Positions 1,046 to 21,280 of a DNA stretch of 64,000 nt are shown one piece after another. Every line of letters begins with the position of its first letter. The stretch's first letter is position 1. The notes beneath the pieces were generated by a model. The model did no database searches, was not told the origin of the DNA, and saw nothing but the letters and a program-made list of their open reading frames with translations. The stretch is from Janthinobacterium sp. 61. GTDB taxonomy: Bacteria; Pseudomonadota; Gammaproteobacteria; Burkholderiales; Burkholderiaceae_D. The position numbers and the translations under genes were made by a program. The stretch covers positions 2,232,001 through 2,296,000 of the forward strand of contig NZ_PJMQ01000001.1 of assembly GCF_002846335.1 (NCBI RefSeq), in the 5' to 3' direction.

Positions 1046-1079
1046 CGCTCCTCCTTTCTTGACACCACGCAAACTCCAG

Positions 1080-1669: not shown

Positions 1670-1684
1670 GGAGGCGAGCCCCCC

Positions 1685-3139: not shown

Positions 3140-3312
3140 GTGATTTCAGTTCCAGTCAACAAGGTCGAAGCGGATACGCCGTGGCCAGGGGCAAGGCGCG
3201 GCTTTCTACGATAGCGTATTTATTCTGTCATTGCAGCAACTTTTACGGGATCGATTGCCTCTTTCCTCCAGAGTCGATACCATGCAAAGCGTGATCGTTA
3301 CCGGATACCTCC

Positions 3313-3915: not shown

Positions 3916-3963
3916 CCAGTCCATGCAGATCATTGTGATCTCGCCGGAATGGAAGGAAATGCC

Positions 3964-4413
3964 ATGTTGAACAAGAAACTCCTGGGTGCGGTAATGGTAG
4001 CGGCAGTGGCTGTGTCTTCGGCCGCAGTCGCCGGTGACCGCGACTTCAATACCGTTGCTGGCGCCGTCGTCGGAGCGGCCATTGGCAACAGCACCGGCGG
4101 CCGCAATGGCGCGATCGTCGGTGGCGTGCTTGGCGCCGCCGTCGGCAACAGCATCAGCACGAATGACCGCTATTACGACCGTGGCGGCTATCGCGGCGGC
4201 TACCGCGAAACCTATTATGCGCCTGCGCCGCAACCGGTGTACTACGCCCCGGCGCCGCAACCCGTGTACTACGCGCCGCCACCGCGCTACTACGGCCCGC
4301 CGGCTGTCGTCTACGTGCAACCGGGCCGCGGCTACTACCGCGACCATGGCCGCCGCGGCTACTATGACCGGGACTACCATGACCGCGGCCACGGCTGGGG
4401 CCATCGCCGTTAA
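3964..4413 (+). CDS. Glycine-zipper envelope protein, Tyr/Pro/Arg-rich tail
   Basis: A 149-aa exported protein. ATG 3964 has AAGGAAATGCC before it, giving the signal peptide MLNKKLLGAVMVAAVAVSSA with cleavage near AVAG. Residues 30-70 are a glycine-zipper 2TM region (AGAVVGAAIGNSTGG and GGVLGAAVGNSIS). The remainder is low-complexity: tandem YYAPAPQPV units and an Arg/Asp/Gly/Tyr/His tail ending DRGHGWGHRR. Such proteins sit in or under the outer membrane and are usually envelope-stress-linked. Its promoter matches that of the YXWGXW gene at 20582, suggesting co-regulation. Precise function unknown. Confidence 0.8.
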   Translation: MLNKKLLGAVMVAAVAVSSAAVAGDRDFNTVAGAVVGAAIGNSTGGRNGAIVGGVLGAAVGNSISTNDRYYDRGGYRGGYRETYYAPAPQPVYYAPAPQPVYYAPPPRYYGPPAVVYVQPGRGYYRDHGRRGYYDRDYHDRGHGWGHRR

Positions 4414-4556
4414 GCACCGCCCTGCACCATGCGAAACCTGCGCCAGCCTGCTGCCGCAGGTTTTTTTGCGAGATAGGCAAGGTATCACCGCTGCACAATT
4501 TCGGCTAAGCTGTGTCCTATGATCAACTTAACTGGCCGCCTGGACCGCACCGACCG

Positions 4557-5507
4557 ATGCATTTAATCAAAGACGCGCTTGACTTCGGCCCCTGGATCGA
4601 TGCCGCCGCCGGCACCAGCGTGGGCGCCGGCCCCATGCCGCGACGCGAAAACCAGGATAACTTCCTGCTGATCGATGCCAGCGGCCACGCCGTCTGCCTG
4701 TCGCGGCAGGCGCCATTCCACTGCCAGGTGCCGGGCTGGCCGCGCGGCCATGTGCGCGCAGCCGTGCTCGACGGCATGGGCGGCCACGGCCATGGGCGCG
4801 AGGCGGCGGAAGCGGCCGTGCAAGGCTTGCTGGCCATGCCCGCTTGCCTCGACACGACTACCCTGGCAGCCAGGCTCGACGCCTTGCACACGCGCTTGCA
4901 GGACAGTTTCGCAAGAAGCGCACCCGCCCAGGCGCGCCCCCCCGGCACCACCCTGACCTTGCTGGAAGTGCCGCCCGGCGAAGCCCCGCTGCTGTATCAC
5001 GTGGGCGATTCGCGCCTGTATGAGCTTGCCGACGGCGCGGCCAGCATCCTGACCGTCGACCACGTGCCAGCCACCGTGTACGCCATGCGCGGCGCGCTCG
5101 ACGAGACGCGCTGGCGCGCTGCCGTGCACGGCGAGCACCATCCGCAAATTTCGCAGGCATTTATTTTAGGCAACGCCATCAGCGACAGCTTGCAGCTCGA
5201 CAAGCCCCTGCGCGGCCTCGATGCGGCCACCTTGCCGCCCTTCCTGGCGCATCTGGGCGACCGCCGCGTGCTGCGCGTGCGGCCCGGCGCCCACTATGTG
5301 CTCGCCAGCGATGGCTTCTGGGCCTGTGACGATCCGCTGGCTCTCACAGGCCGCTGGCCCGCCTTGTGTGCCGGCAAGAGCGCAGCACAGGCCGTCGGCG
5401 CCCTGTTTGACGACTTCCTCGCCCACCCGCCAAAAGGCTTGCATAGCGACAACATTACCTTGCTGGCGCTGCGCTTCGATGCGGCGTTCACCGGCCCAGG
5501 CGGCTAG
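4557..5507 (+). CDS. PP2C-family Ser/Thr protein phosphatase
   Basis: A PP2C phosphatase of 316 aa. Motifs in order are RRENQDNFL, VLDGMGGHGHG (metal-binding Asp and Gly), the PPGTTLTLLEV strand, HVGDSRLYEL, LASDGFWACDD and SDNITLLAL. All the metal-coordinating aspartates of an active manganese/magnesium-dependent enzyme are present. There is no membrane segment, so it is cytoplasmic. An upstream GTG at 4512 is in frame; neither start has a strong Shine-Dalgarno. The FHA protein at 6218 and the kinase at 17450 are the obvious functional partners. The last 20 bp overlap the end of the convergent DUF2177 gene. Confidence 0.85.
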   Translation: MHLIKDALDFGPWIDAAAGTSVGAGPMPRRENQDNFLLIDASGHAVCLSRQAPFHCQVPGWPRGHVRAAVLDGMGGHGHGREAAEAAVQGLLAMPACLDTTTLAARLDALHTRLQDSFARSAPAQARPPGTTLTLLEVPPGEAPLLYHVGDSRLYELADGAASILTVDHVPATVYAMRGALDETRWRAAVHGEHHPQISQAFILGNAISDSLQLDKPLRGLDAATLPPFLAHLGDRRVLRVRPGAHYVLASDGFWACDDPLALTGRWPALCAGKSAAQAVGALFDDFLAHPPKGLHSDNITLLALRFDAAFTGPGG

Positions 5508-5907
5508 CTGCCAGATAACCGGCCGTTGCCGACGCGGCCGACAACACGCTGCCCCAGGCCATGTCGATCATCGTCAAGCCCAGCGGCCAATCGCGCAAGG
5601 TCGCGTAATTACTCAAGTCATAAGTACCATAGGCAAGCAGGCCGAGCAGCGCGCCCAGTGCCGCCGCCGTGCGCCCGCGGCGCGCACGCAGTCCGGGCAG
5701 GATGGCAAAGACCAGCAGCCCCGCCACGTACAGCAGATAAAACAGCGTGGCCGGCGCCCAGCGGGGCGACTCCGCCAATAGCGGCCCCAGCGCCGCGGCA
5801 TACACGGGCCGCATCAACACCGCCAGCCACAGGGCATCGATGGCCAGGAACACAGACAAGGTGGCGCCATAGGCTATGGCAAGCTGAAGCGGGCGTTGGG
5901 CAGGCAT
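5488..5907 (-). CDS. DUF2177 family membrane protein
   Basis: A 139-aa inner-membrane protein with four predicted helices, around residues 8-32, 52-72, 81-101 and 112-134. The pattern FLAIDALWLAV near the start and GTYDLSNYATLRDW in the third/fourth helix region is characteristic of DUF2177. Function of the family is unknown. ATG 5907 is chosen because homology starts at MPAQRPLQLAIAYG; the frame is open further upstream. It overlaps the 3' end of the PP2C gene by 20 bp tail-to-tail. Confidence 0.8.
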   Translation of the reverse strand: MPAQRPLQLAIAYGATLSVFLAIDALWLAVLMRPVYAAALGPLLAESPRWAPATLFYLLYVAGLLVFAILPGLRARRGRTAAALGALLGLLAYGTYDLSNYATLRDWPLGLTMIDMAWGSVLSAASATAGYLAASRLGR

Positions 5908-6217
5908 AGTCGTCTTTCGATTCAAACGTGAGGGGATCGGCTGCGCCAGCATAATGCAAAACGTCCCAGGCTCGCATCGCGGGCGTAAAAATACCCAGCC
6001 GGCGCGCACGTGCATCGAGGGGAAGCGATTCCATGTAATATCAGAACAACATATCAAGAAAGATATAAAATATGTTTTTGAGCAATGGTTTCCTTGGCGC
6101 GTATTGCATGGTGTGACCGGGAACATGAATTCGGGCAAAAAGAGCGCATTCCGGCGCTGCGAAAGTTGCCAAGCAGGCGCAAAAGCGCGTAAGCTCTCAT
6201 GTAGAACAGAGGGCAAA
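5908..6217. other. Divergent intergenic region, partly AT-rich
   Basis: 310 bp between DUF2177 and the FHA gene. It contains an AT-rich core around 6031-6086 (AAAGATATAAAATATG and flanks) that probably holds the divergent promoters. No convincing -35/-10 pair or repeat was identified. The frame of the FHA gene stays open here, but this is not thought to be coding. Confidence 0.4.
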
Positions 6218-7822
6218 ATGCCCCCGCTCGATTCGAGTCAGAATGTCATGAAAAAATGCAGCAACCCGGAGCACCCGCACTGTACGTTCTGGGTCTTGCC
6301 TGGGGAAACAGTCTGTGCGGGCAACCACCCGCAAGCGACCAATGCCCCCAGCAGCTACGACCTGTTGACCGCACTGCGCAGCGCCCGTTCCGAGCCATCG
6401 GCAACGGCGCTTTCGCACGCCCCGGCCCATGATCCAGCCTTTCAGGCCGTGAGCAGCAATGTGCCGCTCTCCACCGCGCCTCCGCCATTCACGCCAGCCG
6501 CCGTTGCCGCGCCAGCGGCTGCGCCGGCCTACCAGCCCGTACAAACCCATCTGCACATCAGCGGCTTCGATCCCCGTGCGGCAGGCGGACGGCAAACCCT
6601 GAAAATGGAACTGCGCGGCATGAGCGCCGCCTGTGCGCCGCAACTGACCTTGCGCCTGCGCTCGGACCTGATACCCCGTGGCCATGTGCAGCATGATTTC
6701 GTGCGTACCACCCGCGGCGACTGGCGCCCCGTGTTTGTCGAGTTCTCCTCGCGCAACAAGGAACACGGGCAGTACCAGATCGAAGTGGAAGTGCACAGCC
6801 ATGTCGACGGCGCCGTGGCGCAGAAATGGGTGTGCACCTTCGTCATCCTGGTGCCGCGCCGCGATGCCACCCTGACGGAAATCCACCAGATCTTCCTCAG
6901 CACGCACAAGAATGTGCGCGTGATGGCCGACGACGCCTCGATCGCCCGCGTCACGGGTGGCGACGGCTGTAACCTCGACGTGACGGCGCGCAATGCCGGC
7001 ATCGCCCACGTGGATTTATCTGCGCCGCAAGGCAAGATCGACATGGGTTTTACCACCATCGCCTGGGACGAGGAGTTGATCGAAGTCGACCTGCCCGCCG
7101 CCAGCCACTGCCATCCGCATCCGAGCCAGGCCGCCTGCCTCGTCAATGCGGCGCCGGAAGCGGGCGAACAGCGCCAGATCCGCCTGTTCGCGCTGGAAGA
7201 ATGCATGCTGGGCCGCTTCGAGCTGGTGGACCCGGAAGCCGATGTGCTGCTCAGCCATTTCAACCCCGACGGCCAGGACAACAATGGCTTGACACGTCGC
7301 CTGTCAGGCCGCCATGCCATCATCCGCCGCGGCCAGCAAGGCTTTGAAATCGAGGACGTGTCACGCTATGGTGTGTTGCTCGACGGCGTATGGCCTGGCA
7401 AGCACAAGCCAGTCGCCCTGCGGCTGGGCATGCGCATCGAACTGTCTGCCAGCATCAAGGGCATCGTCGTGCTCAGCGTCACGGCCATCCTTGCGCACGG
7501 CGTAATCCTGCACCGCATCGACCACGGCGCCCGCGCCGAATGTTTTTACCTGCTGCTGCCGGAAGCCCAGCCCTCGCCAGCCACCCACCTGGCCACGCCG
7601 CAGGCCAGCTGCCTACCCGTGCTCTTCCACCGCAACGGCGGTTTCTGGCACCTGGACACGGCCAGTGGCAAGGAAACAGCACTGGCCCCCGCTACCGCTC
7701 TGGATAAACTCAGCGGCTTCGCGCGGCACAAACGCTTCGCCAGCGAACCGTATCCGGAATGCTGGATCATCCGCACCGAGGGTGCGGCGCTGTGCGATAG
7801 TAGTACCATGCAAACCGCCTGA
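6218..7822 (+). CDS. FHA-domain protein with N-terminal zinc-site motif
   Basis: A 534-aa cytoplasmic protein. ATG 6218 is chosen for the AGAGGG six bases upstream; an ATG at 6248 is an alternative. Residues 12-36 carry a Cys/His cluster (KKCSNPEHPHCTF then ETVCAGNHP) that looks like a small zinc site. A Pro/Ala linker (about 60-105) leads to a beta-rich region. An FHA domain at about 325-405 shows LGRFEL, the RRLSGRHAII core with the phosphothreonine-contacting Arg/Ser-Arg-His, and IEDVSRYGVLLDG. The canonical NGT after the last strand is YGV here. FHA domains read phosphothreonine, so it is a likely reader for the kinase at 17450, opposed by the PP2C at 4557. The C-terminal 130 aa are unrecognised. 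Confidence 0.75.
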   Translation: MPPLDSSQNVMKKCSNPEHPHCTFWVLPGETVCAGNHPQATNAPSSYDLLTALRSARSEPSATALSHAPAHDPAFQAVSSNVPLSTAPPPFTPAAVAAPAAAPAYQPVQTHLHISGFDPRAAGGRQTLKMELRGMSAACAPQLTLRLRSDLIPRGHVQHDFVRTTRGDWRPVFVEFSSRNKEHGQYQIEVEVHSHVDGAVAQKWVCTFVILVPRRDATLTEIHQIFLSTHKNVRVMADDASIARVTGGDGCNLDVTARNAGIAHVDLSAPQGKIDMGFTTIAWDEELIEVDLPAASHCHPHPSQAACLVNAAPEAGEQRQIRLFALEECMLGRFELVDPEADVLLSHFNPDGQDNNGLTRRLSGRHAIIRRGQQGFEIEDVSRYGVLLDGVWPGKHKPVALRLGMRIELSASIKGIVVLSVTAILAHGVILHRIDHGARAECFYLLLPEAQPSPATHLATPQASCLPVLFHRNGGFWHLDTASGKETALAPATALDKLSGFARHKRFASEPYPECWIIRTEGAALCDSSTMQTA

Positions 7823-7851
7823 TACAACGACGTCCTGCACCTCCCTGATCG

Positions 7852-7956
7852 CTAGCGCGGCACCAGTACGAGAAAAATCATCGACAAGCCGAGTATAAAC
7901 ACCGCTTCCAGCGTAAACACGATGGCGGGGATCTGCAATTCGCGCGGGATTTTCAT
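7852..7956 (-). CDS. Small single-pass membrane protein (34 aa)
   Basis: An ORF of 34 codons reading MKIPRELQIPAIVF and ending IFLVLVPR. It has a charged N-terminus, one hydrophobic segment (residues 10-32) and an Arg stop-transfer. AGAGG lies 7 nt before ATG 7956. It is convergent with the FHA gene, 29 nt from its stop. The good ribosome site and amphipathic-then-hydrophobic layout argue for a real small membrane protein, but homology cannot be checked here. Confidence 0.5.
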   Translation of the reverse strand: MKIPRELQIPAIVFTLEAVFILGLSMIFLVLVPR

Positions 7957-8214
7957 GGCAAGACCTCTTCAAAACGTAGGACTACCTTCAGCATAGTGCG
8001 CCCCGCGCCAATTGCATTATCAGCCACACAATACACTTGACTGGCCGGCATGCGTTGCCGAGCTCGCTGGCAAGGCCATTCCGACACACAATTTAACAAA
8101 TTATCGCCAGATATTCTGCAAATACTCCCCCTTCACGCCCTTGCATACTGTATATTCATCCAGTTAATATCCCTTGCATTTCACAAAGCGCCCGCATAGC
8201 GTTTTACATTTCCT

Positions 8215-8817
8215 ATGGCTTCCAACAAAGCGCACCATGCGACCGGCTGGGCTGCCGGCGTGATTGCCGCGGCCCTGGTCGCGCACGCTGACGCCGGTGG
8301 ACCCTATCAAGTGCTGAGCATGCTCGCCTTTATCATGGGCGCGCTGGGCGGCACGGCGCCCGACTGGCTGGAAGTGGCCTGGTGGGCGCGCACGCACCGA
8401 CTGTGGATCACGCACCGCACCTGGACGCACTGGGGCCTGGCCTGGATCGCCCTGCTCATCTACACCTACCTGCAATTGCCGCACCACCTCTGGGCGCCGC
8501 CCCTGTTCGGCTTTGCGGCGGGCGGTATCATGCATCTGCTGGCCGACTGGCCCAATCCGCTGGGCGTGCCGTGGATCTTTCGCCGCCACTCTCTGCGCTG
8601 GTGGAAAAGCGGCCGCCATGACATCATCGTCATCGCCGCCGCCTGGCTGGCCGCCACGGTCGTGGCCGACCATGTATTTTTCGATGGCATCCACCTGCGG
8701 CGCACCCTGCTGGCGCTCGACAGCCTGCTACACTGGTCCGCCACTGCCCTGCAGCAAGCCTGGGCGGATCTGCAACAGTGGCAGGAACGCTGGCGCCTTG
8801 GTGGTGGCGCCAATTGA
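8215..8817 (+). CDS. YdjM/DUF457-like inner-membrane metal-dependent hydrolase
   Basis: A 200-aa membrane protein of the LexA-binding/YdjM-like family. Diagnostic motifs are NKAHH at the N-terminus, TAPDWLEV, ITHRTWTHW (about 63-71) and HLLADWPNPLGVPW, which together form a His/Asp metal site at the membrane. Four or five hydrophobic segments alternate with these motifs. Biochemical role is undefined; related proteins are annotated as metal-dependent hydrolases. It ends 20 bp before the Fur box of the iron-uptake unit and is probably not part of it. Confidence 0.82.
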   Translation: MASNKAHHATGWAAGVIAAALVAHADAGGPYQVLSMLAFIMGALGGTAPDWLEVAWWARTHRLWITHRTWTHWGLAWIALLIYTYLQLPHHLWAPPLFGFAAGGIMHLLADWPNPLGVPWIFRRHSLRWWKSGRHDIIVIAAAWLAATVVADHVFFDGIHLRRTLLALDSLLHWSATALQQAWADLQQWQERWRLGGGAN

Positions 8818-8837
8818 CGCCGGCGGCGTGGCAATGT

Positions 8838-8856
8838 GATAATGAGTATCATTCTC
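8838..8856 (+). promoter_or_regulatory. Fur box upstream of the FecI-like sigma factor
   Basis: GATAATGAGTATCATTCTC matches the 19-bp Fur consensus GATAATGATAATCATTATC at 16 of 19 positions. It lies 66 bp before the chosen start of the sigma factor. Iron-bound Fur would repress the whole fecI-fecR-receptor unit. Its position also argues against the upstream in-frame start at 8836. Confidence 0.8.
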
Positions 8857-8922
8857 AAAAAGCCCAGCCAGCCGGCACACCGCGTTCCGTCAGCCCAGCT
8901 CTTCCCTTGCCTGGAGAACGCA

Positions 8923-9432
8923 GTGAGTACCGTCAGCCCCACCCATGCCAGCCACCTGAGCACCCTGTACAGCGAGCACCATGGCTGGCTGTATGGCTGG
9001 CTGCGCGGCAAGTTGGGCAATCGCGCCGAGGCGGCCGACCTGGCGCAGGACACCTTTTTGCGCCTGCTGGGCAAGCGCGATGCGGAGTGCCTGCGCGAGC
9101 CGCGCGGCTACCTGGCGACGATTGCGCGCGGCTTGCTGATCGACCGCTACCGACGCCAGGCGCTGGAGCACGCCTACCTGGAAGCGCTGGCCCAGCAGGC
9201 CGAACCGGTATCGATGTGCGCCGAAACGCATGCCATCATCATTGAAACCCTGCTCGCCATCGACCGCCTGCTCGACAGTCTGGGCGCGCGCACGCGGGCC
9301 ATCTTCCTGCTGGCGCAAATCGAGGAGCTCAGCTATGTGGATATCAGCCGGCGCCTCGGCATATCCCTGCCGACCGTCAAGAAACACCTGGTGCGCGCCT
9401 ACACGGAATGCCTGATGCTGGCGGCCGGCTGA
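8923..9432 (+). CDS. ECF sigma factor, FecI-like
   Basis: A 169-aa iron-starvation sigma factor. Region 2 contains EAADLAQDTFLRLLG and the -10-recognising RGYLATIARGLLIDRYRR; region 4 contains LDSLGARTRAIFLLAQIEELSYVDISRRLGISLPTV split by the usual turn, ending KKHLVRAYTECL. GTG 8923 is chosen because GGAG lies 8 nt upstream and because the upstream frame start at 8836 would lie in the Fur box. It directs RNA polymerase to the receptor gene when its anti-sigma partner is signalled. The stop overlaps the FecR start (TGATG). Confidence 0.88.
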   Translation: MSTVSPTHASHLSTLYSEHHGWLYGWLRGKLGNRAEAADLAQDTFLRLLGKRDAECLREPRGYLATIARGLLIDRYRRQALEHAYLEALAQQAEPVSMCAETHAIIIETLLAIDRLLDSLGARTRAIFLLAQIEELSYVDISRRLGISLPTVKKHLVRAYTECLMLAAG

Positions 9433-10400
9433 TGTTTGGCCCTTCCGCCCCGCATTCAGCCCCAATCCCCCGCAATGTGCTGGCCGCCGCCGCCCACTGG
9501 CATGTGGAACTCCAATGCGGCAGCGCCGACCCGGCAGCGCTGCAGGCATGGCGCGACGCCAGCGCCGAGCATGAACGGGCCTGGGAACTGCTGCAGCGCA
9601 TGGATGGCCAGCTGGGCACGATACCCGCCAGCCTCGCCCTGCCCGCGCTGCAGGCGGCGCAGCAACGCCGGCGCGCGGCCGCCAAGATACTCGCGCTGCT
9701 GGTGGCGGCCGGCGGCGGCATCGCGCTGGGCCAGGCAGGCCTGCAGTCGAGCCCATGGCAAGCCTTGACGGCGTCCTTGCGCACGGCGCCGGGCCAGCGC
9801 CGCCACGTCACCTTGGCCGATGGCGGGCGCCTGGAGGTCAATACGGATAGCGCCCTGGATGTCGCCTACAGCGCCACGCAGCGCCGCATCCGCCTGCACC
9901 ATGGCGAAATCATGATCACGACGGCGCCCGATCCGCGCCCCTTCCTGGTCGACACCCGGCACGGCGTGATCCGCGCGCTGGGCACGCGCTTCGGCATACG
10001 ATGCGACGCCGATGGCAGCACCGTCAGCGTCTTCGAGCACGCCGTAGAAGTGCGCTGCGCTGCACGACCGGACGCCGTGCGGCGCCTGGAAGCGGGTCAG
10101 CAGCTACGCTTTGGCGAAACTGGCGCGGATAATGTGCAGGCCACGCAAGCGCACCAGGACAGCTGGCTGCGCGGCATGCTGGTGGCCACCGACTGGCCCC
10201 TGCAGCAACTGGTGCGGGAACTGGCGCGCTACCGGCGCGGGCGCCTCGTATGCGACGCCAAGGTGGCGCGGCGGCCCGTCACGGGCACCTACCGCCTCGA
10301 CGATATCGACGCCGCGCTGGAAAGCCTGTGCGCCTCGCACGGGCTGCAAGTGACCTACTTCACACGCTACTGGGCCACGGTGGCGGCCAGGCCCGCATAA
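9432..10400 (+). CDS. FecR-family transmembrane sigma regulator
   Basis: A 322-aa anti-sigma/signal-transfer protein, translationally coupled to the sigma gene through TGATG. The N-terminal cytoplasmic DUF4880 region (AAAHWHVELQCGS..LQAWRDASAEHERAW) precedes a hydrophobic segment near 85-108 (ILALLVAAGGGIALG). The periplasmic FecR domain follows (GQRRHVTLADGGRLEVNTDS, VDTRHGVIRALGTRFGIR), then a C-terminal STN-like region that contacts the TonB receptor. It holds the sigma factor until the ligand-loaded receptor signals across the periplasm. Confidence 0.88.
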   Translation: MFGPSAPHSAPIPRNVLAAAAHWHVELQCGSADPAALQAWRDASAEHERAWELLQRMDGQLGTIPASLALPALQAAQQRRRAAAKILALLVAAGGGIALGQAGLQSSPWQALTASLRTAPGQRRHVTLADGGRLEVNTDSALDVAYSATQRRIRLHHGEIMITTAPDPRPFLVDTRHGVIRALGTRFGIRCDADGSTVSVFEHAVEVRCAARPDAVRRLEAGQQLRFGETGADNVQATQAHQDSWLRGMLVATDWPLQQLVRELARYRRGRLVCDAKVARRPVTGTYRLDDIDAALESLCASHGLQVTYFTRYWATVAARPA

Positions 10401-10513
10401 TTATTTTCAGCCTTTTTGCGCCAGGGGTTGGTGTTTCGATGCGCTGCTTCGGCTTGATAAGTAAGAAGCAGATTCAGCCACCATTTACCACACCCTGAGC
10501 AGAAAGACCGAGC

Positions 10514-12991
10514 ATGCAGCTGACCACCCCCGTCCTCCATCCCGCCGCGCGCGCCATCCGCCTGGCCGTCCTCGCCATGGCTTGCGCCGCCCCCGCCGCC
10601 TTCATCGCCGCACCCGCCCTGGCGCAAGGCCAGGCTGCCGCCGCAGCACCGCAACCCTACGCCGTGCCAGCCGGCCCGCTGGCCACCGCCCTCAACGATT
10701 TTGCCGTCGCCGCCGGCGTCAGCCTGTCGACCGATCCCGCGCAGACGCGCGGCCTGCGCTCGCCCGGCGTGCGCGGCAGCTTCAACGTAGCCCAAGGCTT
10801 TTCCCAGGTGCTGGCCGGCAGCGGCATGGAAGCGGTGCAGCTGCCGAACGGCGCCTACGTGCTGCGCCAGGCGGCGCCATCCTCCACCTCGGAGGCTGGC
10901 GTAGAAAAGACCATGGCGCCCGTGATGGTCAGCGCCAGCATGGAGCGCGACCCCGTCAGTGAGCACAGCAGCTCGTACGCGGCACGCGCCGTCACCGTCG
11001 GCAAGGGCGTGCAGACCCTGCGCGAAATTCCCCAATCCGTCAGTGTCGTCACGCGGCAGAAAATGGACGACCAGAACCTCAGCACCATCGACGCCGTGCT
11101 GGCCAATACCACCGGCATCACCATGTACGATAGCCCCATGGGCGGACGCTATGTGTATTCACGCGGTTTCATGGTCGAGACCTACCAGTTCGATGGCGTC
11201 AACCGCGCCATGTACTACCCGCAGGCGAACAGTTTTACCAGCAATACCGCCATGCTGGATCGCGTGGAAATCGTGCGCGGCGCCACGGGACTGCTGCAGG
11301 GCACGGGTTCGCCGGGCGCCGCCATCAACATGGTGCGCAAGCGCCCGCTAGCGGAAAAACAGACGCAACTTGCGCTCAGCGCGGGCCGCTGGAACGACGT
11401 GCGCGGCGAAGTCGACGTCACCGGCCCCTTGAACGAGTCGGGCAGCATCCGCGGCCGCGTCGTGGCTGCGCACGACCAGCGCGATTATTTTTATGACGTG
11501 GCCAACAGCCGCACCGACGTACTGTACGGCGTGCTGGAATTCGACCTGGCGCCGGGCAGCAAGCTGACGACGGGCGCCAGCTACGAAAAACTGCACTCGA
11601 CCCCGTTTTTCTCCGGCATGCCCCGCTACCTCGACGGCAGCGACCCGAAACTGCCCCGCTCGACCTACCTCGGCGCCGATTGGAACCGGTGGGACAGCCG
11701 CCAGACGGCCGCCTTCGCCGAATTCGAGCACCGTTTCGATGCCGACTGGTCGCTGAAAGCCAGCGCCAACTACACGCGCGAACAGCATGACGTGAAATAC
11801 ATGTTCAACCTGGGTGCGCTCAACCCCGCCACCCTGGCCGGCATGATGATGTACGCCGGCGTGTTCGACTATGGCACCACCAACAAGGGTGTCGACTTGT
11901 CGCTCGATGGCAAATTCAACGCCTTTGGCCGCCGCCACGGCTTCAGCGCGGGCATCAGCACGAACCGGCTGGAAAACGACAGCGATTACAGCCTGGCCAT
12001 GATGAAGCTGCCCAATAGCGCCCTGCAACCCAATCACGGCGTAGCGGAACCGAGCGATGCCTGGCTTCGCGAAAATCGCTATGGTGGTGCTCACAGCCTG
12101 ACGACCATGACGCAGACGGGCGCGTATGGCGTGGCCCGTTTCAGCGTCAGCGACCCGCTCACCGTGGTGGCCGGCGCGCGCGTGTCGAACTACAAATCGA
12201 GCAGCGTGTACCGCGACACGGGCGAGGTGTATCTCGACCCCTACCGCGAAAACGGCGTCGTCACGCCGTATGGCGGCGTGATCTACGCATTCGACAAGGA
12301 CTGGTCCGGCTACGCCAGCGTCTCCGACATCTTCCAGCCGCAAAACCAGCGCACGGCCGATGGCGCCTTGCTCGACCTGCTCAAAGGGCGCAACCTGGAA
12401 GTGGGCGTGAAAGGTGAACTGTTCAACGGCAAGGTCAATACCTCGCTGGCGCTGTTCCGCATCGAGCAGCGCAACCGCGCCGAGGCCGATCTGGTCAATA
12501 TCTGTACCAGCGGCACGGAGTGCTATTTCTCGACGGGAAAGGTGCGCAGCGAAGGCCTCGACGCTGAAATCAGCGGCGAAGTGGCGCCGGGCTGGCAGCT
12601 GTTCGCCGGCTACACCTTGAACAACTTCAAATACCTGGACCAGACCTCGATTGTGGGCGTGATGTTCGCCAGCACCTACTCGCCGCGCCACATGCTGCGC
12701 GCGTGGAGCGACTACCGCCTGGCCGGCGCGTTGCAGAAGTGGAGCGTGGGTGGCGGCGTGAACTTCCAGACGGAGAGCTCGCGCACCACGCGCGACGTGA
12801 AGGTGGCGCAAGGCGCGTACGCCTTGTGGAGCGCGCGCGCCGCCTACCAAATCGACCGCAACTGGACGGCGGCGCTGTCCGTGACGAACTTGCTCGACAA
12901 GCGCTACTACCAGACGGTGAGCGCGCCTGCGTGGGGCAATTTCTATGGCGAACCGCGCAAGGCGCAACTGACCTTGCGCGCGCGTTTCTAA
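10514..12991 (+). CDS. TonB-dependent siderophore receptor with STN domain
   Basis: An 825-aa outer-membrane receptor. Signal peptide 1-37 (cleavage ALA|QG); STN signalling domain about 45-110 (YAVPAGPLATALNDFAVAAGV); plug from about 150 (VGKGVQTLREIPQSVSVVTRQ, VEIVRGATGLLQG); 22-strand barrel ending with the terminal aromatic in LTLRARF. The plug motifs and the single Cys pair near 660 (NICTSGTECYF) match FpvA/FhuE-type ferric-siderophore receptors. The STN domain makes it a transducing receptor for the FecR/sigma pair just upstream. No siderophore biosynthesis genes are nearby, so it may take up foreign siderophores; this is inference. Confidence 0.9.
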   Translation: MQLTTPVLHPAARAIRLAVLAMACAAPAAFIAAPALAQGQAAAAAPQPYAVPAGPLATALNDFAVAAGVSLSTDPAQTRGLRSPGVRGSFNVAQGFSQVLAGSGMEAVQLPNGAYVLRQAAPSSTSEAGVEKTMAPVMVSASMERDPVSEHSSSYAARAVTVGKGVQTLREIPQSVSVVTRQKMDDQNLSTIDAVLANTTGITMYDSPMGGRYVYSRGFMVETYQFDGVNRAMYYPQANSFTSNTAMLDRVEIVRGATGLLQGTGSPGAAINMVRKRPLAEKQTQLALSAGRWNDVRGEVDVTGPLNESGSIRGRVVAAHDQRDYFYDVANSRTDVLYGVLEFDLAPGSKLTTGASYEKLHSTPFFSGMPRYLDGSDPKLPRSTYLGADWNRWDSRQTAAFAEFEHRFDADWSLKASANYTREQHDVKYMFNLGALNPATLAGMMMYAGVFDYGTTNKGVDLSLDGKFNAFGRRHGFSAGISTNRLENDSDYSLAMMKLPNSALQPNHGVAEPSDAWLRENRYGGAHSLTTMTQTGAYGVARFSVSDPLTVVAGARVSNYKSSSVYRDTGEVYLDPYRENGVVTPYGGVIYAFDKDWSGYASVSDIFQPQNQRTADGALLDLLKGRNLEVGVKGELFNGKVNTSLALFRIEQRNRAEADLVNICTSGTECYFSTGKVRSEGLDAEISGEVAPGWQLFAGYTLNNFKYLDQTSIVGVMFASTYSPRHMLRAWSDYRLAGALQKWSVGGGVNFQTESSRTTRDVKVAQGAYALWSARAAYQIDRNWTAALSVTNLLDKRYYQTVSAPAWGNFYGEPRKAQLTLRARF

Positions 12992-14361: not shown

Positions 14362-15081
14362 CTATTTGATGCGGAACACGGCGTCGACCGTCTGCGCCAT
14401 CTTCAGGCTGGTGACGATCAGCATGTCGTCGGGATTTTTCTGCGCGCGACTGTTGGCGCGCTGGTAACGATCGGACGGCACCAGGCCCACCGCATTACCC
14501 AGGTTTTTCAGCTGGTCCGACGAGATGCCGGCCACGGCGCCCGCGCGCTTGCCGAAGCCGCGCGCCATCGCGTCGGCCTTGCGCTGCGCATCCTTGACGG
14601 CCTCGCCCACCAGTTCCTCCTCCAGGCGGACGCGCTGCGTGGCGCCGAAGGTGGTGGCAAACGCATCGAGATTGGGCATGGCCAGCAGCGGGCGCATGAC
14701 GGCGGGCCACTTTGACAGATCCGCCACGTTGATATGCACGCTGGCCTTGATCAGGTACTGCGGATTGGCCGGGTCCTGCTCGGCGCCCTTGCGGATTTCC
14801 TTGCGTACGTCGCGCACCTCGATGCCTGCCGCCGCCTCGGCCAGGCCTTGCTCCAGCAACAGCGCCTTGATTTCCGTGATGCGCGTCTGCACGAGGGCCG
14901 TGGCCACCTCCGGCACGGGGTCGTAGACGCTGACGTCGAAGTCGATCTCGCCCAGGTCCGGCATGATGAAACTGTAGGCCGTGCCCGTCGCATGGATGAA
15001 GGGGTAGGCAGGCAAGTCGCCGGCAAGGGCAGGCATGGGCAGGCAAACGAAGAGGATGGACAGCAGGCGGTTCTTGAACAC
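14362..15081 (-). CDS. SIMPL-domain (DUF541) periplasmic protein
   Basis: A 239-aa exported protein. The GTG at 15081 with CTGGAG 5 nt upstream gives a good signal peptide (FKNRLLSILFVCLPMPALA|GDL); an ATG at 15108 is the alternative. The SIMPL domain covers most of the protein: GTAYSFIMPDLGEIDFDVSV, VRDVRKEIRKG, and the conserved helix VGEAVKDAQRKADAMARGFGK leading to AGISSDQ. The family includes BP26, which forms channel-like oligomers in the periplasm. It starts 62 nt after the kinase stop on the same strand, so it may be the third gene of that unit. Confidence 0.8.
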   Translation of the reverse strand: MFKNRLLSILFVCLPMPALAGDLPAYPFIHATGTAYSFIMPDLGEIDFDVSVYDPVPEVATALVQTRITEIKALLLEQGLAEAAAGIEVRDVRKEIRKGAEQDPANPQYLIKASVHINVADLSKWPAVMRPLLAMPNLDAFATTFGATQRVRLEEELVGEAVKDAQRKADAMARGFGKRAGAVAGISSDQLKNLGNAVGLVPSDRYQRANSRAQKNPDDMLIVTSLKMAQTVDAVFRIK

Positions 15082-15143
15082 GGATACTCCAGCGCAGTTA
15101 AGATGCATGAAGTATCCGTCAAGATGACACTTTTGACAATTAA

Positions 15144-17450
15144 TTAGTCGAGCGTGCGCGCCACCCGGAAGCCCACGATGTCGTTCGACAGCACGGTGGA
15201 AAAGCTATTGCGCACGGCCGAGCGCAGGTAGCGCGGGTGGTACAGCCAGGAGCCGCCGCGCAGGATGCGCCGGCTGCTGTCGCAGCCCTCTTCCCACGCG
15301 CTGCCATCGACGGGCGCGCCTTCGTAATTGTCGTGCACCACGTCCTGCACCCATTCCCACACATTGCCATGCATGTCGAACAAGCCCCAGGAATTCGGCG
15401 CGAAGCTGCCCAACGGGCTGGTGCCGCCGCGGTACACACCGCGCGGGCCGCCATTGTAGACATACAGGCCATCGTAGTTGGCTTGCTCGGTGCTGATCGT
15501 TTCGCCCACGTTGAAGGCGGTGCGCGTGCCGGCGCGGCAGGCGTATTCCCATTCGGCTTCGCTGGGCAAGCGGTACTGCCGGCCCGTGCGGTCGCTCAGC
15601 CACGCCAGGTACAGCTGCGCATCATTCCAGCTCACGCCCACCACCGGGTGCTGGTCGTTCTGCACGAACCCAGGATTGTCCCAGTCCGTTTCGGAACCGC
15701 CCGCCCATTGCGTCGCTTGCACAAAGGCGCGCCATTCTCCCACGCTGACGGGATGGCGCGCCAGCGCGAACGGACGCTCGATGCCGACCCAGTGCTGCGG
15801 CGTCTCTCGCTCGAGCCAGGCCTGCTGCGAGCCTGCCTGGATGGCGGCCTTGTGTTCCGTCTCGTGCGCACCCATCTGGAAGCGGCCGCTGGGAATGAGC
15901 ACCAGTTCCGGCCCCTGCCCCGGGCCATCGAGGAAATCATCGCGCAAGATGCCTTCGGCATTGGCCACCGGTGCCACGTGTTCCGTTTCTGCTGCCGGCA
16001 CGGATGCCGGCGCCGGGACAGATGCGGCGGCGGCGCGGCTGGCCTCTTCCCTGCGCGCGCGTTCCTGCTCGGCGCGATAGGCCGCCTCCGCCTTGGCGAC
16101 GATGGCCTTGCGCTGCAATTCCTGGTGTTCCTGCAAGGCGGTGGCGGCATCAGCTTCGCGGCGCGCGCGCAACTGGCCGCGCAGCGCTTCCTTGCGCAGC
16201 TTGCGCGCCTCTTCGGCTTCGAAATGGCGCTGCGCCTCCTGCTCGCGGCGCAGTTTGTCCTGCCGCTGCTTTTCCAGCGCAGCGGCCTGGATTTCCGCCT
16301 TGCGCCGCTGGTCCAGTTCTTCCTGGCGCGCGCGCGCTTCCTTCAGCGCCGCTTCGCGGGCCTGTTCGGCGGCCAGCGCCGCCTGCTTTTGCTGCTGCGC
16401 CGCCCGCGCCTGCTGCTGGCGCGCCTGTTCCGCCAGTTCTTCAGGCGACGGTCCGGCGGCGCGCTCCAGCCCTTCCAGCAAGGCTTGCACGGAGTGCGGC
16501 CGCAATTCCGCCATCAAGGAAAAGCCGTTCTGCAGCACCTGCCACTGCGCTGCATTGAGCGACTGCGGTGACGACGGCAAATGGCTGGCGCTGCGCGCAT
16601 CGTCGAACGGCATGCGCCCTTCGAGCATCTGGTAAATCATCACGGCCACCGCATAGACATCCAGGCGCGGGCTGGGCTGGCGCTGATTGGCGCCTGCCTC
16701 GGGCGCCCGATAACCGTGCGTGCCCGCATTCGGCGTTTCCAGCGCCAGGCTGCTGTCCGCATTGCGCACGCGTGTAGCGATGCCGTAATCGAGCAGCTTG
16801 ATGTCGCCTTTCGCCGTCAGGAAGACATTCCCCGGCTTGATGTCGCGGTGCACCAGCTTGTGCTTTTCCCACGCATACGACAAGGCATCGGCTACCGGCT
16901 GCAGCAATTGCTGCACGGTCGACAGAGGCAGCGTGCCCTGGCGCCCAAGATAGTGCTCGAGGTCTTCTCCATCGAGGCATTCCATGATGATGAAATAGCT
17001 GGCCGTGGCCGGGTCTTGCGCCCACTCATAGACGCGCACGATGTTTTCATGCGCGAGTTTGCGCGCCTGGGTGGCTTCCTCGATCAGCAGCTTGGCATGC
17101 GTGGCGCTCTGCGTCAGCTGCGCCGGCAAGATCTTCAGCGCCACCATTTCGCTGCTGCCCAGCTCCGCGTGCGTGGCCAGGTCGGTGGCTTGCCACACCT
17201 GCCCCATGCCGCCCGTGCCGATCAGCCGTTCGAGCCGGTAGCGGCGGTTTTGCGGGCCGATTTCCTGGCCCGTCATGAAGCCCAGTTCCGTACCCTGGCG
17301 CACGGGCAGAGGCGCGGGCGCGGCGCCCGGCGGCGCGTACTCGGCGTCAAGGATGGCGTTCTTGCGGCGTTCAAATTCCTGCTCGCTGAGCAGCCCGTCG
17401 TCGTGAAGGGCGCGCAGTTCCCGCAGTTTGTCTCGTGCTTTTTGCATCAT
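15144..17450 (-). CDS. Ser/Thr protein kinase fused to SHOCT, coiled coil and FGE-like domain
   Basis: A 768-aa fusion from ATG 17450. Domains in order: SHOCT-like helix pair (3-38, LHDDGLLSEQEFERRK); kinase (about 70-330) with LIGTGGMGQVW, VALKIL, the catalytic HRDIKPGNVFL and the DFG equivalent LLDYG (DYG); a long Ala/Gln/Arg/Glu coiled coil (about 345-500); and a formylglycine-generating-enzyme-like domain (about 535-768) with PSGRFQMG, RHPVSVGEWRAF, RLPSEAEWEYACRAG, GLFDMHGNVWEW and RILRGGSW. In the segment where FGE has its two catalytic cysteines this copy reads HPRYLRSAVR, with none, so the domain is probably a ligand-binding C-type-lectin fold rather than an enzyme. It starts 19 nt after the coiled-coil protein gene. 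Confidence 0.85.
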   Translation of the reverse strand: MMQKARDKLRELRALHDDGLLSEQEFERRKNAILDAEYAPPGAAPAPLPVRQGTELGFMTGQEIGPQNRRYRLERLIGTGGMGQVWQATDLATHAELGSSEMVALKILPAQLTQSATHAKLLIEEATQARKLAHENIVRVYEWAQDPATASYFIIMECLDGEDLEHYLGRQGTLPLSTVQQLLQPVADALSYAWEKHKLVHRDIKPGNVFLTAKGDIKLLDYGIATRVRNADSSLALETPNAGTHGYRAPEAGANQRQPSPRLDVYAVAVMIYQMLEGRMPFDDARSASHLPSSPQSLNAAQWQVLQNGFSLMAELRPHSVQALLEGLERAAGPSPEELAEQARQQQARAAQQQKQAALAAEQAREAALKEARARQEELDQRRKAEIQAAALEKQRQDKLRREQEAQRHFEAEEARKLRKEALRGQLRARREADAATALQEHQELQRKAIVAKAEAAYRAEQERARREEASRAAAASVPAPASVPAAETEHVAPVANAEGILRDDFLDGPGQGPELVLIPSGRFQMGAHETEHKAAIQAGSQQAWLERETPQHWVGIERPFALARHPVSVGEWRAFVQATQWAGGSETDWDNPGFVQNDQHPVVGVSWNDAQLYLAWLSDRTGRQYRLPSEAEWEYACRAGTRTAFNVGETISTEQANYDGLYVYNGGPRGVYRGGTSPLGSFAPNSWGLFDMHGNVWEWVQDVVHDNYEGAPVDGSAWEEGCDSSRRILRGGSWLYHPRYLRSAVRNSFSTVLSNDIVGFRVARTLD

Positions 17451-17469
17451 CTGGGGTGAAACGCTTCCA

Positions 17470-19785
17470 TCAAGGCTGCAGGGCGACGCCGCAGGCGGCG
17501 CAGAATTTATCTTCCGGATGGCCTGCGCGCTGCGCATGGCCGTTCTTGCAGCGTGCTGGCGCGGCAGCAGCGGCACCTGGCTGCAGCGCCTGCGCCACGG
17601 CCACACCCAGCTGCGCCTGCGCCGACAGGCCATGCGCGTGCGCAGCGTTGTGCAAGTTGATCAGGTCCAACTGCTGGCGCCGTTCACGCTCCGCCTGGCC
17701 TTCCAGGTAGCTGCGCTCCTGCGCCACGCTGTCCTGCGCCATGCGCATGGCATCCAGCGGCGCGACGCTGTTCTCGGCCGCCGCCAGCGCAGCCAGCGCG
17801 TGGATCTGCTCGGCGCTCATGCCTGCCTGCAACTGTACCTTCAGCACTTGCGCCAGCGCGGCCGCATTCTGCCCGGCGGCCATGGCCACCTTGCCCGTGT
17901 CGCTCAGCGTGCCGATTTTCTCGATGCGATCGATGTCGATGCGCGCCAGTTCGGCGGCATGCGCCTGTTGCGCCAGCAAGGCTTCATATTCGCCCTTCCA
18001 GCGCGCGTAGTCGCTTTCGCGCTGCTGCGCCATGGCCAGCAGATCGCGCTGCCATTGCGCTTCCTGCTCCAGCTGGCGCAGCTGCTGGCGCTGTTCCTCG
18101 ATGGCCAGCGCGTCGAGCTGCGCCAGCTGTGTTTGCTGCTGCAACTGGCGTGCGTGCACGCCATCGGCCTCGATGGTGCGCAGCAGCTTTTCCTGCTGCG
18201 CGATGGCGTCCTCGCGCGCGCCGCCGCGCCGCAGCACCGCCACTTTTTCCGCGATTTCTGCCGCCTGCACCTGGGCCGCTTCATCCTTGTGCGCCTCGGC
18301 GCGCAGCAGCTCGCGCTGGCGCGCCAGCTGCATCTGGTCTTCCCACTCCTGCACCCGCTCGGCTTCGCGTTTGCGCGCCGCATTCGCCAGCATCAGGCCC
18401 TGCCAGGCTGCCTGGTGCTGCTCCGCCTCCAGCTGCGCCTCGCGCTGCGCCGCATCCGCTTCGGCCTGGCGCAGGCGCGCCAGCTGGGTGCGGCGCCCGG
18501 TTTCGTCGTCGATCAGCAGCGCGCTTTCAATTTGCTGCGCGATCGACTGCAAGTGGACTTGATGGGTAAAGCGCTGCTGCGCCAGCTGGATTTGCTCGCG
18601 CCCATGCAGTTGCGACAGTTCCAGCTCGCTGCGCATCTTGATGGTGGCCAGCGCGCGCACGTGTTCCCAGTTGGCCGCTTCATCGGCGCGCTGCGCGCCC
18701 TTTTGCGCCAGTTCCTGTTCCAGCTCACCCAGCGCCAGCGCGGCGCCATGGTCGAGCGCCTGGCGCCGCGATTTCGCTTCCAGGATGCGGCCATAAAGGT
18801 CGATCTGGCGCCCGCGCAGCGCTTGCAGGCGCTCCGCTTCCTGGTAGCCCTGCTCCGCCTTTTCCACCGTCGCATCCTGCTGCAGCTCTGCGCGCCGGTG
18901 CGCATGGCGCGCCGCCAGCTCTTCGCGGCGAATGCGCTGCCACTCTTCCTCGTCATACAGCTGGTCGAGCTGCTTCATGCGCTCCAGGCTGTGCTGTTCC
19001 AGTTCCTGCGCCGGCAAGCCGCCCAGCCACAGGGTGCCGATGGCTGCGTCGCCGTTGCCCTCGCGCTTGTCGTGCCGCAGGCTGAGGGTGTCCACGCGCG
19101 CCACGGCCAGGCCGCTGGGCGCCAGGCGTTGGGTCAGGGCCGATTGCAGGCGTTCGTTCAATTCGGGCCGCAAGTCGGCATTCGCGTCCATTTCGCGCAG
19201 CGCGCGGCTGCCGATGAATTCCAGCGCAATCTGGCGCACGGACGGCAGCAGCAAGGCGTGCAGGTGGGCGCGCGTGACGGCGCCCGGCGCGCGCATGAAC
19301 TGGCGCGCGAACGCATCGGGCTGGCCCAGCGCGATATCTACGCGCAGGGATGCGGCGACGTTCAGCAACTCCGTGCTGGCCAGGCCGGGCAGGTCGAATT
19401 CCAGGCTGACCGCGTCGGCGCGCGCAATCAGCACTTCCGCCGGACGCGCCGGCAGCAGTGCAGGCAGGCGCGCAAAGAAGGTGGCGCTATCGTAGTCGCC
19501 GGCTGGTATCAAGGTGAAAGCGTCCGATTGCACGATCCAGGCACGCGACTCGGCGGGCACCTGCAGGCGGCGCGCCGCGCCGCCGAACAGCGAGGACAGT
19601 TCGCGCACGCCGAAGAACAGGGCCAGTTGCCCATCGGCAAGATGCCACTGATTGGCGTGCAGCACCGCGTCGCTGTCGGGGGCGCCCAGCGACAAGCCGC
19701 AATGCGCGCAATAGCCGGCGGCAGCGCCGTTCTTGTGCTCGCAGCGCGGGCAGCGGGCGCCGCCAAAACCAAACAATTGGAACAT
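17470..19785 (-). CDS. Zinc-ribbon / SPFH-like / coiled-coil protein (771 aa)
   Basis: A large cytoplasmic protein with two zinc ribbons and a very long coiled coil. The N-terminal ribbon is CPRCEHKN..YCAHCG (12-32). Residues about 60-270 resemble an SPFH/band-7 core: repeating beta strands, then the helix TRAHLHALLLPSVRQIALEFIG and GLAVARVDTLSL. From about 285 to 690 it is a heptad-rich Glu/Gln/Arg/Ala helix. The last 30 residues form a second ribbon (RCKNGH..FCAACG). No transmembrane segment is seen, unlike flotillins. AGGAG precedes ATG 19785. It is the first gene of a unit with the kinase. SPFH proteins form ring or cage oligomers; that this one is a kinase scaffold is inference. Confidence 0.7.
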   Translation of the reverse strand: MFQLFGFGGARCPRCEHKNGAAAGYCAHCGLSLGAPDSDAVLHANQWHLADGQLALFFGVRELSSLFGGAARRLQVPAESRAWIVQSDAFTLIPAGDYDSATFFARLPALLPARPAEVLIARADAVSLEFDLPGLASTELLNVAASLRVDIALGQPDAFARQFMRAPGAVTRAHLHALLLPSVRQIALEFIGSRALREMDANADLRPELNERLQSALTQRLAPSGLAVARVDTLSLRHDKREGNGDAAIGTLWLGGLPAQELEQHSLERMKQLDQLYDEEEWQRIRREELAARHAHRRAELQQDATVEKAEQGYQEAERLQALRGRQIDLYGRILEAKSRRQALDHGAALALGELEQELAQKGAQRADEAANWEHVRALATIKMRSELELSQLHGREQIQLAQQRFTHQVHLQSIAQQIESALLIDDETGRRTQLARLRQAEADAAQREAQLEAEQHQAAWQGLMLANAARKREAERVQEWEDQMQLARQRELLRAEAHKDEAAQVQAAEIAEKVAVLRRGGAREDAIAQQEKLLRTIEADGVHARQLQQQTQLAQLDALAIEEQRQQLRQLEQEAQWQRDLLAMAQQRESDYARWKGEYEALLAQQAHAAELARIDIDRIEKIGTLSDTGKVAMAAGQNAAALAQVLKVQLQAGMSAEQIHALAALAAAENSVAPLDAMRMAQDSVAQERSYLEGQAERERRQQLDLINLHNAAHAHGLSAQAQLGVAVAQALQPGAAAAAPARCKNGHAQRAGHPEDKFCAACGVALQP

Positions 19786-20548: not shown

Positions 20549-20581
20549 CCATTTCATGCAATCACCGAAATGGAGAACACC

Positions 20582-21280
20582 ATGAAACCCATCACACTCT
20601 ACGCAGCAGCCATGCTTGCCATCAGCGCCGCGGCCTTCTTGCCCGTGCAGGCCATGGCACAGAATCAGCTCGGCGTCAGCATTGTCGTCGGCAACGCCCC
20701 GCCTCCCCCACGCTTTGAAAGCGCGCCAGCTCCGCGTGCCGGCTATGTCTGGGCACCGGGCTACTGGAACTGGGATGGCCAGCGCCATGTCTGGAACAGC
20801 GGCGAATGGCTGCGCGAACGCGGCGGCAACGAGTACCGCCGGGCCGCCTGGATACAAGAAAACAACCGCTGGCGCCTGGACCGTGGCGGCTGGGTCGCCG
20901 CGCAAGTGCAGCCCGTGCGCTATGACGAGATCCGCATCGCCCCGCCGCCACCGCGCCGCGAAGCCATCCCGCGCGCGCGCCACGGCTACATCTGGGCGCC
21001 CGGCCACTGGGAATGGCGCGGCCAGCGCTACGCCTGGACGCCAGGCGTGTGGATCGCCGAACGCCCCGGCTATGTGTATGCGCCGCCCGCCTGGAACCAG
21101 CGCGATGGCCGCTGGCAGATGGAGCAAGGCCGCTGGTCGCCACGCGGGCCGAACGGCGACCGTGACCGCGACGGCATCCCCAACCGCTATGACCGCGACA
21201 ATGGCAATCGCCACGACCGCGACGGCGATGGGGTACCGAACCGCGACGACCGGCGTCCGAACAACCCGAACCGCAGCTAA
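20582..21280 (+). CDS. YXWGXW-repeat envelope protein with Asp-rich calcium-type tail
   Basis: A 232-aa exported protein. ATG 20582 has GGAG 7 nt upstream. Signal peptide about 1-24 (cleavage AMA|QN). The body has YXWGXW/WXXGXW-type units: [36 protein letters not shown] and [15 protein letters not shown]. The C-terminal 50 residues contain DRDRDGIPN and [12 protein letters not shown], which match the calcium-binding thrombospondin type-3-like repeat. Such proteins sit on the periplasmic side of the outer membrane. It shares its promoter architecture with the glycine-zipper gene at 3964. A strong terminator follows. Confidence 0.82.

Follow-up and report, generated by a model that had tools for sequence, protein, structure and literature searches.

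An anchorless SPFH protein and a soluble SHOCT kinase in Janthinobacterium: a possible remainder of a phosphorylation module for a dedicated SEDS-PBP peptidoglycan synthase

What might a soluble protein kinase accomplish when its gene directly follows that of an SPFH-like coiled-coil protein without a membrane anchor? This question is raised by two genes in a 64,000-nucleotide stretch of DNA from Janthinobacterium sp. 61 (contig NZ_PJMQ01000001.1, positions 2,232,001 to 2,296,000), hereafter called the window. The source is a 6.0-Mb single-contig Janthinobacterium genome, and the nearest named loci are those of Janthinobacterium sp. A first-pass annotation, made from the sequence of the window, proposed that the two proteins are physical partners and that a third gene, encoding a SIMPL-domain protein, might join them. 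From the analyses described below, we favor with modest confidence a broader reading, in which the pair belongs to a phosphorylation module with an SPFH protein as its scaffold. This module would ancestrally have controlled a dedicated peptidoglycan synthase composed of a SEDS protein and a penicillin-binding protein (PBP), and its regulatory half would have been kept in core Janthinobacterium.

The association of the two genes is well supported. Both genes and their coordinates are correct as first annotated (Table 1), and although the kinase could begin at either of two adjacent ATG codons (17453 or 17450), the second yields the reported 19-nucleotide gap after the SPFH gene. A total of 107 named SPFH loci were confirmed, and locus counts given here rest on the best 80 of these 107 (L035-L114), nearly all from Oxalobacteraceae. 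The kinase gene follows the SPFH gene in 79 of the 80, with the kinase domain starting 183 to 549 nucleotides past the SPFH match; the contig of the eightieth locus (L043) ends 175 nucleotides after that match. A full-length kinase query finds a match on the SPFH strand in 80 of 80 loci. The same order is preserved in five of five deeply related regions (L152-L156, GTDB genus g259), where SPFH identity falls to 31-38%. Thus the adjacency survey bears out a conserved partnership, and both this adjacency and SPFH similarity, whose absence the first-pass annotation had named as grounds for abandoning its proposal, were found. The SPFH gene is present in 34 of 37 genomes of the genus, our own included, and the three that lack it are 82-88% complete. 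Matches occur in 188 of 392 genomes of the GTDB family (one of them weak, G457), distributed across eight of 44 genera, and in a phylum sample the SPFH profile is found in three of 398 genomes, again counting our own, one of these by its zinc ribbon alone.

The upstream member of the pair is a member of the SPFH/Band_7 superfamily, as judged by profile matches among its relatives and by predicted fold. The window protein itself gives no Band_7 match at E ≤ 1 in Pfam, and a Band_7 search of its genome lists four other places and not this gene. Three of 20 aligned relatives match the Band_7 profile (best E value 1.6e-8), and the protein of L151 exceeds the cut-off (29.6 bits, cut-off 23.6). Weak matches to Band_7_1 (PF13421) are seen in four of the 20 (best 0.013), and L151 scores 0.05. 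The predicted fold of the window protein matches the SPFH domains of stomatin and prohibitin, and its model places helices at residues 279-626, with short breaks, and at 676-733. Searched against PDB sequences, the protein and its family returned no more than chance matches to coiled coils and ribbons. The highest 19-residue hydropathy is 1.15 and no hydrophobic anchor is apparent, in agreement with the SPFH-like core lacking a membrane anchor that was first described. Zinc ribbons at both ends, also proposed at first, are evident in the aligned relatives, as all 20 share C12/C15/C26/C29 and C746/H750/C762/C765 without variation and zinc-ribbon models match each of them at E ≤ 1 (the N-terminal ribbon of the window protein is under the Pfam cut-off, with 18.8 of 27.3 bits). 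This feature is not kept throughout the deeper branches: the C-terminal ribbon is missing, by reading of the sequences, from L152 and L156, and both ribbons are missing from L151. The ratio of non-synonymous to synonymous substitution rates (dN/dS, Nei-Gojobori method), calculated against seven chosen Janthinobacterium loci, is 0.07-0.24 for the SPFH gene and 0.11-0.16 for the kinase gene, indicating purifying selection on both.

The kinase carries the three domains first assigned to it, each over its Pfam cut-off: SHOCT at residues 8-35 (30.6 bits, cut-off 27), Pkinase at residues 72-290 (144 bits) and the sulfatase-modifying formylglycine-generating enzyme (FGE) domain at residues 514-766 (196 bits). 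Its catalytic residues are intact. Strict patterns for the VAIK-like Lys, HRD, DFG/DYG and APE motifs are all matched in 80 of 83 family kinases, and each of the exceptions misses a single pattern (L154 and L156 at VAIK, where the Lys is kept, and L049 at APE). The SHOCT pattern is found in 81 of the 83, and the remaining two deviate at one position. The suggestion that both proteins are dominated by long coiled coils holds for the SPFH protein, given its modeled helices, but not for the kinase, whose sequence reads as two globular domains joined by a charged linker of about 200 residues. Neither a PASTA domain nor a transmembrane helix was detected in the kinase by Pfam scan and hydropathy (highest 19-residue value 0.76), and it is therefore not a PASTA-type PknB kinase.

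The FGE-like domain appears not to be a catalytic one. Catalytic formylglycine-generating enzymes carry two C-terminal catalytic Cys residues. As the first-pass annotation had noted, these are lost: the tail is free of Cys in all 64 family kinases in which the tail pattern was found, and a second tail pattern contains none in 62 of 62. Among the other 19 of the 83 kinases, four are cut by contig ends, three lack the FGE domain and 12 vary from the pattern. The only Cys residues in the window domain are at positions 638 and 723. Three g259 kinases (L152, L154 and L156) are only 464-478 residues long and have a short charged end in place of an FGE domain (Pfam on two of them). Because these kinases lack it, the constant parts of the partnership are the SPFH, SHOCT and kinase domains, and FGE is an addition. 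Among NCBIfam models, PvdO comes nearest to the FGE-like domain (198 bits versus a cut-off of 500).

These domains also invite a reading as a conflict or defense system, in which the kinase would be the effector, the C-type-lectin-like FGE domain the sensor and the SPFH protein a superstructure. PADLOC models match the kinase domain (mad6 at 1.5e-53, and PD-T4-6), and FGE domains have been proposed as sensors in conflict systems (PMC7159879, PMC10907252; here and below, statements from the literature refer to the available portions of the papers cited). However, the PADLOC matches lie mainly over the generic kinase domain, the SPFH and SIMPL proteins give none, and NCBIfam MAD6 reaches 128.6 of the 460 bits required, leaving no full-length match to a defense kinase. 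The SPFH gene is near-universal in the genus rather than patchy, and the FGE domain is optional rather than hypervariable, being 81-95% identical to that of the window across core Janthinobacterium loci and nearly as well conserved as the kinase domain. In view of that conservation, a diversity-generating retroelement acting on the FGE domain was discounted, with no search aimed at one. We therefore consider a defense role highly unlikely.

The pair does not stand alone. In many relatives it is part of a cluster with two convergent arms, PBP-B-C-D-E-SPFH-kinase and SEDS-F558-SH3-PP2C-FHA. An FHA protein was first seen beside the pair in g259, and relatives of it were then found near most loci. 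A homologue lies near the pair in 61 of 80 loci, in 61 of 61 on the opposite strand, and is present in 59 of the 67 loci whose downstream flank is complete (9.9 kb). In g259 it lies upstream of the pair on the same strand in four of five regions (L152-L155). Of 18 aligned members, 15 match the FHA profile at E ≤ 0.01. The 4512-5507 product has the sequence hallmarks of a PP2C phosphatase, namely the profile match and the metal-binding Asp motifs: DGMGGHG, GDSR, DG and DN are invariant in 12 of 12 members, of which just six match PP2C_2 at E ≤ 0.01. PP2C is present in 35 of 80 loci, in all 35 on the FHA strand, and the SH3 protein, F558 and SEDS (62.7 bits in Pfam) are present in 34, 28 and 15, respectively; the counts for these four genes are bounded by a 10-kb flank.

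Ahead of the SPFH gene, most relatives carry five genes, A to E, encoding proteins of about 1100, 440, 190, 370 and 350 amino acids. Gene A encodes a PBP with a transpeptidase domain (58.4 bits) and no glycosyltransferase domain in the Pfam scan, and its SxxK, SxN and KTG motifs are invariant in 16 of 16. All five genes are present in 55 of 80 loci, and among the 74 with at least 9 kb of upstream sequence the block is all-or-none, with 52 loci carrying all five, 22 none and none some. Across the 392 family genomes, each of the 129 robust carriers of gene E also holds SPFH, and 59 SPFH matches are without E; two weak E matches (G493 and G499, both without SPFH) were dropped. In a wider survey of 13 regions, chosen rather than random, all twelve genes occur together in seven (G016, G743, G753, G640, G702, G352 and G516), such that a Ser/Thr protein kinase, PP2C, FHA, SEDS and a PBP transpeptidase share one locus. 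Among the remaining six, the window has PP2C, FHA, SIMPL, kinase and SPFH, and so only the first three of those five part types; G023 has the SPFH arm only (over 40 kb); G575, G625 and G615 have FHA, SPFH and kinase only; and G452 has B-C-D-E-SPFH only.

These counts bear on whether the pair is instead a stand-alone scaffolded kinase with SIMPL as its third gene, the FHA, PP2C and wall genes being unrelated neighbors. In 22 of 74 loci SPFH and kinase do persist although the block is missing, and the g259 relatives keep them without FGE. SIMPL, however, is found near the pair by tblastn in only four of 80 loci, which rules it out as the third gene, whereas FHA and PP2C recur at the frequencies given above, the block is present or absent as a whole, and gene E is nested within SPFH carriers. 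Accordingly, we regard this simpler arrangement, which is the one first annotated, as quite unlikely: FHA and PP2C share the locus, and SEDS, PBP and more join them in many relatives.

How, then, does the window come to lack the wall enzymes? Neither the window nor the adjacent 20 kb on its left side contains SEDS, F558, SH3, PBP or any of genes B-E, and the whole genome gave no PBP-A (a search with no positive control), no gene E (a search that had matches in 131 other sampled genomes) and no F558. In the window, FHA and PP2C are separated from the kinase by about 7 and 10 kb, respectively, and the unrelated genes in this interval include what by eye looks like a Fec-type sigma/anti-sigma/receptor set. 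Both remain under purifying selection, with dN/dS of 0.12-0.19 for FHA and 0.19-0.34 for PP2C (three loci each). Four deep Janthinobacterium genomes (G001, G016, G023 and G028) carry gene E, which is missing from 33 other genomes of the genus that have SPFH. Locus L053 of J. fluminis carries the block, and its kinase domain is 86% identical to that of the window, compared with at most 82% for any locus outside Janthinobacterium. Because deep Janthinobacterium carry E and the block-bearing L053 is closer to the window than all loci from outside the genus, loss within core Janthinobacterium is the simpler reading, and the window lineage probably lost the wall enzymes and kept the kinase, phosphatase, FHA and SPFH proteins. 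In the SPFH tree, the core-Janthinobacterium stem is long (0.43) and the block changes state at least three times.

The co-occurrence of a kinase (writer), PP2C (eraser), FHA protein (reader) and SPFH protein (scaffold) at one locus suggests a reversible phosphorylation switch, and the neighboring SEDS and PBP transpeptidase genes suggest that in relatives a dedicated wall synthase is under the control of this switch. The most frequent companion of SHOCT is Band_7_1, an SPFH-type domain (PMC3581485), which suggests that the SHOCT helix of the kinase docks to the separate SPFH protein. From these parts we infer a scaffolded kinase assembly, as did the first-pass annotation. In such an assembly, SPFH domains and the long coiled coil would form a ring or cage on which the kinase docks via SHOCT, there phosphorylating the SPFH protein, the FHA protein or envelope clients. 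The FHA protein would bind the resulting phosphothreonine, and PP2C would reset the switch. The ancestral client would be the SEDS-PBP synthase encoded in the same cluster. With the synthase, B-E, F558 and SH3 lost from core Janthinobacterium and the regulatory half kept, the present client there might be the housekeeping wall machinery or membrane stress.

A locus with similar part types is known from Actinobacteria, where pstP-rodA-pbpA-pknA-pknB-fhaB-fhaA is tied to wall synthesis and division (PMC6554272). That source describes kinase/phosphatase loci tied to SEDS-PBP wall synthesis in Actinobacteria and a kinase-phosphatase link in Firmicutes, and the clustering of Gram-positive kinase genes with rodA and PP2C genes was noted in 2005 (PMC1262709). 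Both arrangements join a Ser/Thr kinase, a PP2C-type phosphatase, FHA, SEDS and a PBP transpeptidase in one locus, and the parallel is drawn from this parts list. The actinobacterial kinase, however, is a membrane-spanning PASTA protein, whereas the kinase described here is soluble and carries SHOCT and FGE-like domains; an SPFH scaffold, B-E, F558 and SH3 are added, the genes form two convergent arms, and the host is Gram-negative. Possible, though doubtful, is a more specific proposal that in Gram-negatives an SPFH cage serves as a phosphorylation-controlled platform for its own SEDS-PBP synthase, which the kinase, phosphatase and FHA protein load and release. If true, the cluster would be a counterpart of the PknB/PstP/RodA/PbpA circuit in which a scaffold replaces PASTA sensing, and core Janthinobacterium would hold the remainder after synthase loss, with the switch rewired to other clients. 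A conserved Gram-negative locus of this kind would offer a genetically tractable setting in which to study how wall synthesis is organized by Ser/Thr kinases and SPFH assemblies, and the probable loss of the synthase, with regulators still under purifying selection, means that the connection between the two halves can be put to the test.

No paper on this cluster was found in the literature searched, outside of which lie most subscription journals. The first-pass annotation knew of no described system with this combination. The kinase architecture, however, has a precedent, since one SHOCT-kinase-PG_binding-FGE protein was described in 2013 (PMC3581485). That protein likewise has an N-terminal SHOCT, a kinase and a C-terminal FGE domain in one chain, and Chlamydia Pkn1 joins a kinase to a C-terminal FGE domain (PMC3581485). 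The kinase described here differs in having no PG_binding domain by Pfam scan, an SPFH partner and deep relatives without FGE.

Membrane stress offers another explanation, in which an anchorless zinc-finger SPFH adaptor of the YdjI/Psp type senses or repairs membranes, the kinase tunes it, and the wall genes are mere neighbors. The closest functional parallel to the SPFH protein is YdjI (Bacillus subtilis pspA-ydjGHI), by analogy of an SPFH domain with a zinc finger and without a membrane anchor (PMC8581546). In Bacillus, YdjI is required for recruitment of PspA, and knock-out of its partners YdjG/H mislocalizes wall synthesis (PMC8581546), findings that also count in favor of the phosphorylation module proposed above. 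The weak Band_7_1 matches in four of 20 relatives fit this explanation, as do archaeal ESCRT loci, some of which contain SPFH-coiled coil-zinc ribbon proteins, while those of other groups have STK/STP and FHA (PMC10936438). Although their domain vocabulary is the same, in those archaea the SPFH parts and the kinase parts occur in different clades (PMC10936438), and no ESCRT-III or Vps4 was recognized here, where no search was aimed at them. Unlike YdjI, our protein has an N-terminal ribbon, a very long coiled coil and a SHOCT-kinase partner. No PspA-like gene and no YdjG/H were recognized among the conserved neighbors, though no search was aimed at these either, and SEDS, PBP, PP2C and FHA as conserved neighbors across genera are left unexplained. 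We therefore judge a membrane-stress scaffold to be unlikely.

Several observations weigh against the phosphorylation module that we favor. The FHA motif list comprises GR, SxxH and NG (PMC1262709). In the aligned family the phosphothreonine-binding motifs GR and SxxH are invariant and NG is replaced by SRYG, so by its sequence the FHA protein lacks the canonical NG motif of phosphothreonine readers. No FHA gene lies within 10 kb in eight of the 67 full-flank loci (L053, L067, L078, L079, L080, L082, L083 and L095), none was found in g259 region L156, and PP2C was not found in three g259 regions of the wider survey. The two arms are separate transcription units. SPFH is not always beside a kinase, because G452 (L151) carries B-C-D-E-SPFH without one in the 19 kb examined. 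The only published test of multimerization by a SHOCT peptide, in PMC3581485, failed to multimerize its carrier. The base of the SPFH tree is not settled, so the tree alone does not decide on block loss, and a wall role in the window is without direct support because the wall enzymes are absent there.

Table 1. Coordinates of the principal features; positions refer to the window unless a locus is named.
Feature	Coordinates	Strand	Basis or remarks
Soluble 768-aa kinase: SHOCT, Ser/Thr protein kinase domain, charged linker, FGE-like domain without catalytic Cys	15144..17450	-	Pfam; kinase residues; Cys-free FGE tail
Zinc-ribbon/SPFH (Band_7-like)/long coiled-coil protein, 771 aa, soluble, no membrane anchor	17470..19785	-	Cys clusters at both termini
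FHA-domain protein, 524 aa, N-terminal Cys/His cluster	6248..7822	+	Pfam FHA 25.4 bits, cut-off 20.7
PP2C-family Ser/Thr phosphatase, 331 aa	4512..5507	+	Pfam PP2C_2 26.8 bits, cut-off 24
SIMPL (DUF541) protein with signal peptide, lineage-specific accessory gene	14362..15108	-	Pfam SIMPL 60 bits
F558, conserved family tied to the wall-enzyme cluster	L058:19177-20853	-	No Pfam match over cut-off in members scanned
Gene E, predicted Lon-fold protein with internal duplication	L055:8795-9889	+	No AAA part seen

The remaining cluster genes were characterized to differing extents. The predicted fold of gene E (predicted local distance difference test score of 86.5) matches Lon proteolytic domains, giving 104 PDB matches at E ≤ 1e-3 with Lon and RadA first (1rr9_F, template modeling score of 0.66 to the target). 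Its two halves are duplicates (hhalign 97.6%), and gene E is therefore probably a tandem protein. Its assignment as Lon-like by sequence was rejected (hhalign below 5%), and the reported likeness comes from the predicted fold. In a weak hhalign alignment, the invariant S270 and K316 of the C-terminal half fall on the catalytic Ser and Lys of Lon, and judging from these residues this half may be an active Ser/Lys peptidase. Genes B, C and D are conserved families tied to the wall-enzyme cluster, and none of their scanned members reached a Pfam cut-off; by eye, B reads as a sigma-like regulator and C as an anti-sigma factor, with no family match over cut-off. Gene D was rejected as a second SPFH protein (hhalign probability of 0.4% against the SPFH family), and its hemoglobin match in a PDB profile search (E value 2.9e-4, profile positions 206-277) was judged a composition artifact.

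F558 was likewise dismissed as an FhaA-like FHA protein, having no Pfam match in two members and no profile similarity to the FHA family. It occurs in two of 331 genomes of the class, among which the PBP-A profile gave none at E ≤ 1e-20, a weak result lacking a positive control. In L181 (G867:C17:8001-28000, positions 15081-19194, + strand), which comes from a different order within the class, an F558 homologue directly follows a SEDS homologue whose N-terminal extension is long; because the two adjoin there, the SEDS-F558 pair exists outside this cluster.

Other observations concern the surroundings of the pair. In L151 (G452), where B-C-D-E-SPFH occupies positions 5316-11062 on the + strand, the SPFH protein lacks both ribbons and no kinase is seen in the 19 kb examined, as if ribbons and kinase go together, though this is one case. 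Upstream of the pair in L156 (G662, about 750-4600) are CRISPR-like short repeat arrays, seen as repeated peptides in open reading frames. The window contains two tandem tRNA-Val(gac) genes at 40935-41167. Divergent from the SPFH gene is a gene for a WXXGXW-repeat protein (20570-21280, + strand), and most of the 80 loci have a gene resembling it upstream of the SPFH arm, even where the five-gene block intervenes.

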